A DNA stretch of 64,000 nucleotides from Chitinophagaceae bacterium (GTDB lineage Bacteria > Bacteroidota > Bacteroidia > Chitinophagales > Chitinophagaceae): positions 235,751-299,750 of the forward strand of contig JAMLHK010000006.1 of assembly GCA_023957155.1 (NCBI GenBank), written 5' to 3'. Made by a program: the position numbers and the translations under genes. Below, in pieces: positions 26,241 to 50,596 of the stretch. The notes below the pieces were generated by a model. It did not search any database, was not told the DNA's origin, and was given only the letters and a program-made list of their open reading frames with translations. Position 1 is the first letter of the stretch, and each line of letters starts with the position of its first letter.

Positions 26241-26305
26241 AATCGGTTTGGTTTTATGTGTTGAGCGGATGGAAAATCCGGCTGCGAATATACAAAAATA
26301 GAAAA

Positions 26306-26400
26306 GGCAAGTTACTTACATCGCACCGCTACAACCGCCTACCCTTGCTACCTTCCGGTCCTGGGGGAGTTCAGCAGGAGCTGGTCGTATAAGACTTGCC
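26306..26400 (-). ncRNA. ffs: Signal recognition particle RNA (4.5S, small type)
   Basis: On the minus strand this 95-nt RNA opens GGCAAGTCTTATACGACCAG and closes GTAAGTAACTTGCC, so its ends pair. The centre carries the universally conserved SRP RNA apical region: CTCCTGCTGAACTCCCCCAG, then GACCGGAAGGTAGCAAGGGT with the GGAA tetraloop. It lacks the Alu domain, as in other short bacterial forms. It binds Ffh and guides membrane-protein targeting. A consensus promoter precedes it. Confidence 0.93.
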
Positions 26401-26404
26401 TCGG

Positions 26405-26435
26405 CAAAGATACGGAGGAAGGATCAAAAGACAAA
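26405..26435 (-). promoter_or_regulatory. Promoter of SRP RNA
   Basis: On the minus strand TTTG (26435-26432), a 19 bp spacer and TATCTTTG (26412-26405) match the Bacteroidota consensus. The RNA starts 5 bp after the -7 element. Confidence 0.75.
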
Positions 26436-49204: not shown

Positions 49205-49493
49205 GAAAAATAAAAAACCAGTTTTTTAAAACTGGCTATTATTCCGGTGTGCCGGGTTTAATGTGACTTTGTTTGGCGAGTTATTAAGCAACCTCTATTA
49301 CTGTTTAACTATTACCTGATCATCTATCCTAATGATTCGATAACAAAGATGCTACAGATTTACCCTTAAAGGAACTTAATTCGGCAGATGTGTTTTCCTC
49401 TTCGTTTTTCGGTAGATTTTGCCCGATAAGTATTTATACTTACCGGTATGCAGACCAATAGTATACCCAAGATAGTTGATATATGCTAACTCC
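49205..49493 (-). repeat. Triplicated terminator-bearing unit, copy 1
   Basis: This 289 bp unit is read on the minus strand because it ends there in a terminator: CCAGTTTT/AAAACTGG (49218-49235) followed by a T-rich run (49205-49217). Before that is a hairpin CCGG-CACA-CCGG. A 34-codon open frame without ATG (49433-49329) ends AELSSFKGKSVASLLSNH and then TAG. Upstream is a perfect short palindrome TAAGTATTTATACTTA. Copies 2 and 3 are over 90% alike by eye. It could be a small RNA gene or a repeated gene 3' end. Confidence 0.75.
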
Positions 49494-49960
49494 TGACTTG
49501 TCCATTCATTTCATATTACAGCACTACCCGCCTTTTCCCTGCTATACTGTATTTACCAGGCGCAGTGTGCCAAAATATTTGTAGCTATTTTCAACACATT
49601 TCTCTAAGCCGCAGCGCGGCGTCATATTATGGCGTAGCATACAAAAAGGAATATCTATTTGATTTTTTTGACCAGGAGTGATAGTCCACGTGTATGAAAC
49701 CGGTTTTAATATTACGGTGCTATGCGCCTTTTACTTTTCCTCTACTTCTTTCCTGCAATATTAAGGCTGTTACGCAGCTTATCTGCCGGTTACCTTTGTT
49801 GTGTCATATAGCTTTGTCTGTATGCAGAACAGATTATCCTGCATACCGGAGTTTACACCGGACTTATCACACCCTAAAATGCCTAAAGCATGAATTGTCA
49901 AAATCAGGTGATTTCATTTTTCGTTGTTCATGATTTGCTGATTTAAGTCGGACAGGTTGG
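49494..49960. other. Spacer between repeat copies 1 and 2
   Basis: This is 467 bp of AT-rich DNA. A plus-strand ORF at 49694-49933 (79 codons, rich in Cys, Leu and His) has no protein-like pattern and lacks a promoter, so I do not call it a gene. The repeat phrase TAAGTATTTATACTTA is not present here. Nothing else is seen. Confidence 0.4.
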
Positions 49961-50187
49961 AAAAATAAAAAACCAGTTTTTAAAAACTGGCTATTATTCC
50001 GGTGTGCCGGGTTAATGAGACTTTGTTTGGCGAGTTATTAAGCAACCTCTATTACTATTTAACTATTGCCTGATCATCTATCCTAATGATTCGATAACAA
50101 AGATGCTACAGATTTACCCTTAAAGGAACTTAATTCGGCAGATGTGTTTTCCTCTTCGTTTTTCGGTAGATTTTGCCCGATAAGTAT
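49961..50187 (-). repeat. Triplicated terminator-bearing unit, copy 2 (short)
   Basis: This 227 bp copy is nearly identical to copy 1 from the terminator hairpin (49973-49990) through the open frame. It breaks off within the TAAGTAT palindrome at about 50187, after which the sequence is unrelated. Its peptide frame is the same as copy 1. Confidence 0.75.
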
Positions 50188-50265
50188 AAATTCTTATGTT
50201 GGATTAGGGGCTATTGTATGCTGTGGTTACGGGTATTCGGGGGGCGTCTCCTGTCCGGACGGGCA

Positions 50266-50550
50266 TAAAAATAAAAAACCAGTTTTTTAAAACTGGTCAT
50301 TATTCCGGTGTGCCGGGTTAATGTGACTTTGTTTGGCGAGTTATTAAGCAACCTCTATTACTGTTTAACTATTTGATCATCTATCCTAATGATTCGATAA
50401 CAAAGATGCTACAGATTTACCCTTAAAGGAATTTAATTCGGCAAATGCGTTTTCCCCTTCGTTTTTTGGTAGATTTTGCCCGATAAGTATTTATACTTAC
50501 CGGTGTGTAGACCAATAGCCTACCCGGGATAGTTGATATATGCTAACTCC
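50266..50550 (-). repeat. Triplicated terminator-bearing unit, copy 3
   Basis: This 285 bp copy has the same extent as copy 1. The terminator stem lies at 50279-50296. It differs from copy 1 at scattered sites and by a 5-base deletion in the middle. In the open frame the changes are mostly non-synonymous (three or four amino acid replacements, one silent), which argues against strong selection on a peptide. It ends 46 bp from the 3' end of the macroglobulin gene. Confidence 0.75.
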
Positions 50551-50596
50551 GGAGCTGCTCATTTCTCAATAGGGTAAGGTTAGTTCCAGGTGCCGT

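Follow-up and report, generated by a model that had tools for sequence, protein, structure and literature searches.

What is the role of the three near-identical units that lie in the same orientation next to an alpha-2-macroglobulin gene in this 64,000-nucleotide stretch of a Chitinophagaceae genome (in the following called the window)? A preliminary description had interpreted them as genes for a short minus-strand RNA with two hairpins or, alternatively, as a repeated gene 3′ end. Comparison across genomes supports the view that each unit is a free-standing minus-strand gene with a promoter, a predicted RNA of ~130 nt (called RNA A below) and a putative intrinsic terminator. The first interpretation thus stands in part: the RNA gene with its promoter and predicted terminator is retained, the second hairpin is not general, and a 22-nt core, an antisense partner and a regulon extending beyond the window were absent from it.

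The copies cover about 49205–49496, 49960–50196 and 50267–50553, which agrees with the three units first described except that copy 2 ends at about 50196 and not at 50187. By blastn of the region against itself, they are 96.6% (copies 1 and 2), 93.8% (1 and 3) and 93.2% (2 and 3) identical. In each copy, a terminator stem followed by a T-run was confirmed on the minus strand (49218–49235, 49973–49990 and 50279–50296). The CCGG-CACA-CCGG hairpin is likewise present (49244–49255, 49999–50010 and 50305–50316), but it is limited to the three window copies and a close copy on contig C4 and missing from the other 7 of 11 aligned A rows, hence no general part of A. The proposed -7 element, CATCTTTG, is located at 49344–49351, 50098–50105 and 50401–50408, ~135–145 nt ahead of the end of the T-run, and its assignment is borne out by its position within a gapless module that also precedes other RNA-like sequences. 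Based on the sigma-A box TAnnTTTG of F. psychrophilum, reported at -12 to -5 (PMC9723704), transcription is predicted to start at about 49339, 50093 and 50396, and the minus-strand A RNAs would span 49205–49339, 49961–50093 and 50266–50396, with copy 1 ending in its T-run. The predicted +1 lies one base ahead of the 22-nt core, GAATCATTAGGATAGATGATCA (minus strand; 49317–49338, 50071–50092 and 50374–50395), which is therefore placed at the predicted 5′ end of A. Upstream, the promoter module occupies 49344–49440, 50098–50194 and 50401–50497 on the same strand; in copy 1 it consists of three boxes (49417–49428, 49396–49407 and 49375–49386), a -33-like site (49371–49377) and the -7 box. The palindrome TAAGTATTTATACTTA (49427–49442) marks the upstream edge of the module, with TAAG present in 13 of 13 aligned A copies and CTTA in most.

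Searching the own assembly (G000) with the unit yielded six matches: the three copies, C4:106272–106558 (94%), C2:64746–64909 (a partial match, 73%) and 25 bases on contig C25. Copies outside the window, which the preliminary description had proposed to look for, are thus present on C4 and, in diverged form, on C2. The C4 copy has genes for citrate synthase and ribonucleotide reductase in its vicinity, the C2 copy genes for DUF2141 and hemerythrin proteins. The alpha-2-macroglobulin gene is indeed a neighbour in the window, but because these copies occur near other genes, its presence looks incidental. The assembly comprises 26 contigs, is 88% complete and is rated 4.35% contaminated. Over 7.8 kb, contig L024 of isolate ACE_NR_BACT9, from another species of the genus, matches C2 at 98.9% identity, whereas the C25 locus (B, see below) reaches only 68–80% between the two genomes. 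This raises the possibility that C2 is a contaminant contig and that its A copy comes from a different organism.

Genome contigs were searched with a 20-base core pattern, which matched 15 stretches, eight with A copies (two in L029), five with the core inside another hairpin and two, L023 and L028, judged to be chance. Across 13 aligned A copies, the upstream part is free of insertions and deletions between conserved blocks; farther downstream, length differs between copies except in the core, a semi-conserved stretch, GAGGTTGCTTAAT..CGCC, and the terminator. In an 11-row alignment, from which L030 (without a terminator of such form at that place) and L020 were omitted, the core is invariant from its second base onward, in rows that had themselves been found by the core. 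The terminator stem is paired in all 11 rows, and both partners have changed at 2 of its 5 pairs; the count of such pairs was equalled in 53 of 500 shuffles and the covariation score in 0 of 500. Of the compensatory changes that had been proposed as a check on both hairpins, those in the terminator stem were thus found, whereas the CCGG hairpin is missing in 7 of 11 rows. An AUCAU/AUGAU hairpin formed by the core shows zero variation in the 11 rows, which makes it uninformative on covariation, and since it is not kept in other subclades, a kissing-loop geometry does not appear to be general. With a promoter and a covarying terminator stem followed by a T-run, A has the features of an sRNA gene with an intrinsic terminator. 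The genus includes Agriterribacter humi, a cultured species with both A and B (see below) that NCBI places in Chitinophagaceae; its A copy (L018) agrees with that of G336 (L073), a genome of the same genus, over the stretch compared.

To define the module, a model of the A upstream part plus core (R1) was run over 394 genomes of family f1 of the genome set, presumably Chitinophagaceae. It matched in 42 of them at E ≤ 0.01, with many matches spanning only positions 1–95 and lacking the core. The 25 chosen matches that we read lie mostly ahead of intergenic RNA-like sequence, some with A-like features or those of two further classes, C and D. After leaving out L108 and L115 (2 of the 25, without a -7 anchor) and two near-copies, 33 chosen rows aligned over 108 columns (108 bp) with zero gaps. 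The consensus reads TATCGnnnAAA, AATCGAAG and GnCGAATAAAGTT, 21 bp apart each, a -33-like site and then CATCTTTG/A. The match of the module profile (PWM) to itself peaks at lag 21 (-0.34 vs -0.85 to -1.45 at 26 other lags, 5 to 31).

A second model, R2, was built from the R1 matches, R1 itself having been built on A. Scoring the 150 best candidates per genome in six genomes, R2 gave 42 matches of at least 32.9 bits, the next reaching 17.9: seven in the own assembly (one on C2), seven in G123, nine each in G239 and G359, six in G028 and four in G076. By our own classification, 41 of the 42 modules lead into non-coding RNA (13 A, 5 C and 23 D), and one is unclear (G359_C2). Nineteen matches are training rows. 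Of the 23 others, 22 lead into A, C or D RNA; these 23 include near-copies of training rows (window copy 2, which is nearly identical to one, the C4 copy and G123 C3b) and two mutually identical matches (G239 C6a and C31). In each of the six genomes, a dedicated promoter module marks 4–9 RNA-like loci, none of which matched Rfam where tested. From its architecture we infer an activator that would bind the three TCGAA-like boxes at 21-bp spacing and switch on a set of non-coding RNAs. In genus g23, three loci (L178, L181 and L188) show repeated ATCGAA boxes ~21 bp apart with weak or absent D RNA behind them.

The most frequent class under the module, D, is built of chains of AUCC..UGAAAA units. 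The 22 D RNAs analysed are 223–390 nt long and G-poor (14% G and 26% C). Together they contain 62 instances of the unit A[TA]CC-N0-4-TGA[AG]A, compared to 4.7 ± 2.3 in 200 dinucleotide shuffles (maximum 12), with one D RNA containing none, and 156 of the looser CC-N1-5-GAAA vs 52 ± 9. Compared with shuffles, their bodies are on average less folded (z +0.69; from -1.1 to +2.2 in single RNAs), their longest frames have 4–52 codons vs shuffle means of 23–38, and CTCTGA is found within the last 110 nt of 16 of the 22. We know the AUCC..UGAAAA unit from no other family. The own genome has D RNAs under the module at C20:137524–137621 (L100), with an ATP synthase beta gene downstream of it, which is also the case in G239, and at C22:338402–338503 (L101). 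Class C RNAs follow the same module at L103, L104, L106, L107, L112, L118 and L162, most of them with CAGUAGUC..GAUAGGUA...

Only this genus yielded convincing full-length A, whereas D extends to other genera. Across the order, 31 of 396 genomes matched R2 at E ≤ 0.001. At least two strict D units lie downstream in 4 of 28 loci read, all from genera g9 and g35; a further g9 genome, G108, has one strict unit, and in g53 and g85 the signal is at best weak. Ten R2-matched genomes among the 396 lie outside the family, with 20–30 bits; nine of them had no strict D unit at the one locus read in each, and for the remaining one, G487, there was no locus to read. Among 395 genomes sampled across the phylum, R2 matched five at E ≤ 1e-4. 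Two of these belong to the family, and D repeats were absent at the three weak matches elsewhere in the phylum. A viral origin was rejected, as viral contigs contained no exact match of the core pattern.

Which partner might the invariant core address? Allowing up to two mismatches to the core, the own assembly contains six sites, five in A copies and a single one on C25, and none for a reversed-pattern control. This single site reads as the A core in reverse complement and lies in the terminator loop of a second putative RNA, called B. Because B was found through the core search, the complementarity is selected by construction; what speaks for it is its length, its uniqueness and its retention in the sequences compared. 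By pattern search, all 12 genus genomes examined contain A plus one B with a shared 16-mer. Since 14 of the 16 shared bases are fixed, partly through the search pattern, any covariation rests on two sites. At site 14 the pair is G/G in G000, G336, G380, G279, G310 and G1049, is kept with other letters (A/A) in G359, G1047 and G123, and is mismatched in 3 of 12 (G028, G239 and G1048), an association with a Fisher value of 0.018, not corrected for phylogeny. At site 16 B is constant, with a match in 6 of 12 genomes and a fixed U·C mismatch in the six of the G/G group, in which A and B also have a GAATC extension in common.

Predicted duplexes were compared with 40 shuffles each for 68 pairs, using the first 60 nt of A or C and the B loops of the own assembly, G028 and G076 (those of G123, G239 and G359 were left out). 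For all five A copies of the own assembly, which are not independent, the predicted duplex with B has an energy of -38 to -46 kcal/mol, with z between -6.2 and -10.4; for both copies in G028, z is -2.9 to -3.4. The mean z of the other 61 pairs was -0.45 with D or B shuffled and -0.65 with A or C shuffled. Three A–D pairs reach z -3.0 to -4.8 and so match the A–B strength in G028 (G123 C1c/C1a, G239 C4a/C6b and G028 C37b/C3); these single pairs aside, general A–D pairing by GGAU/AUCC was on average not above shuffles and was rejected, as was C as a partner of B or D, no C pair going beyond z -1.6. A thus has a long, conserved complementarity to another RNA, as expected of an anti-sRNA or sponge, and we regard it as probable that it is a multicopy antisense RNA pairing with the 3′ loop of B, inside a regulon of titrating RNAs.

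Alternatively, A could be a trans-acting sRNA with mainly mRNA targets and the B match one of several. The paralogous FopS sRNAs of Bacteroides pair with mRNA starts (PMC11697453), and the second semi-conserved stretch of A is consistent with further targets. Yet the own assembly contains no other site within two mismatches of the 20-base core pattern, and we consider this reading rather unlikely.

The B locus itself bears on whether antisense pairing is the right description. In the own assembly, the hairpin that contains the C25 match is flanked by a pspC-like gene (24.2 bits, Pfam cut-off 25) and an LEA_2 gene. Being palindromic, this hairpin could be formed by either strand, and in six genomes read (L009, L019, L025, L026, L031 and L050; LEA_2 checked against Pfam at the own locus) B follows an LEA-like gene whose 3′ end would contain the motif. 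A and the LEA strand of the B locus might then share the same sense motif for a common protein without any antisense pairing. We judge this to be unlikely, as the T-run follows the hairpin on the other (pspC) strand only, which identifies it as a terminator on that strand. The same strand shows a conserved promoter-like block upstream that differs from the three-box module, TTACGTA..TACTTAGTA..GCAATTTATA..GCGTTATATA (L009:3750–4250), weaker in G076, and tandem GTGAAAAACC..ATCCA units ahead of the terminator hairpin. In G076, moreover, B lies beside pspC and not LEA, with a far neighbour that is kdsA-like by reading, yet in G123 B does not adjoin the pspC gene read. The searches made did not find the R2 promoter on B. 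Run over 20 genomes, a further model, R3, detected B in all nine members of the genus among them, as well as in G076 and G152, and gave matches of 16–20 bits in four others. In G076 (L047) a second terminator, GAAGCTCC..GGGAGCTTTC, lies just upstream of B, possibly belonging to a tandem B-like RNA. A pattern match at G1048:C26 was rejected as a second B, being coding-like and not a terminator, and so was a replication origin at the B locus, where there is neither a GC-skew sign change along C25 nor a DnaA-box cluster.

Several near-identical copies also recall a mobile or repeat element of MITE or REP type without RNA function, and the DNA ahead of copy 2 (window 49640–50196 including copy 2) is duplicated at C4 with 82% identity over 559 bp. 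Shared flanking DNA of this kind suggests that the near-identical copies arose by recent duplication. Against an element without function, column identity across species is 80% for the A upstream part plus core, 67% for the module and 62% for the RNA part, the terminator stem carries the both-side changes given above with the two shuffle results, and the same module stands ahead of other RNAs at unrelated loci, which renders this explanation very improbable. Antisense geometry and a multicopy small RNA would equally fit a type I toxin–antitoxin system with A as the RNA antitoxin and B as the toxin mRNA. Given longest frames of 21, 12 and 17 codons in three B RNAs vs shuffle means of 23, 21 and 15, and a B body made of tandem repeats, it deserves still less credence. 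The copies do contain an open frame of ~34 codons, but the tail of a protein gene is practically ruled out, as this frame lies inside the promoter module, has no start and is interrupted by a stop codon in the diverged C2 copy.

Returning to A as an antisense RNA to B, we suggest the following course of events. One activator at the three 21-bp-spaced TCGAA-like boxes would turn on A, C and D together, A being present in several copies for dose. The core at the 5′ start of A would pair with the terminator loop of B and inactivate B or trigger its decay; pairing at a 3′ terminator loop is expected to promote decay or to block the use of B and not its making. B and D may serve as platforms titrating a protein or RNA partner that reads the AUCC/UGAAAA unit. 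Taken further, and put forward only tentatively, this could amount to an RNA-titration network in Chitinophagaceae that takes the role of Gac/Rsm and dispenses with CsrA and Hfq, in which one three-box activator drives D and, in one genus, the multicopy antisense A that neutralizes the sister repeat RNA B, and an RNA-binding partner reads AUCC..UGAAAA.

How does this arrangement relate to known systems? In the window, a search with 4227 Rfam models at the gathering threshold returned tRNA and SRP only, the latter an ordinary Bacteroidales small SRP RNA at 26301–26408. The units and B gave five matches at E ≤ 5, all under the gathering threshold, and 20 loci with C or D RNAs a single tRNA. CsrA (PF02599) had no match in the own assembly, which is 88% complete, with the controls ringing in 3 of 14, and GGA in the A loop was therefore rejected as a CsrA site. 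Hfq (PF17209) was above the cut-off in none of 16 genomes, with one sub-threshold match in G003. A literature search covering open-licence papers, and thus weak evidence, found no account of this RNA system; paralogous sRNAs, anti-sRNAs and sponges are parts already known. An antisense partner is kept here through a genus beside many RNAs built of one repeat unit, and the D repeat unit, the A core and the three-box module offer baits for the putative activator and RNA-binding partner in a setting in which neither CsrA nor Hfq was found.

CsrB/RsmZ-type RNAs carry many GGA motifs in hairpin loops. Like them, the RNAs described here bear repeats, would share upstream activation and likely titrate a partner. 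In contrast, the D repeat is AUCC..UGAAAA with 0–3 AGG, the bodies are on average less folded than shuffles, and CsrA was not found in the own assembly. Small RNAs predicted to pair with another small RNA have counterparts in the phage-encoded anti-sRNAs of E. coli (PMC4104026) and a Caulobacter RNA sponge (PMC12559287). Unlike these, A is found on chromosomal contigs, with a copy number of up to four or five, in 12 of 12 genus genomes, with Hfq not above the cut-off. According to PMC11697453, FopS has canonical sigma-ABfr promoters, represses mRNAs and is antagonized by RbpB. With FopS and GibS, A shares the phylum and the organization as a multicopy short-RNA family with a conserved seed and several loci per genome. 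Going by this description, A is set apart from FopS by a three-box module ahead of several RNA classes and a seed that matches the terminator loop of another RNA. Several sRNAs of one family per genome are also found in the Qrr, LhrC and Cia-dependent sets mentioned in the same paper (PMC11697453), whereas here one module stands ahead of RNAs of unrelated sequence classes.
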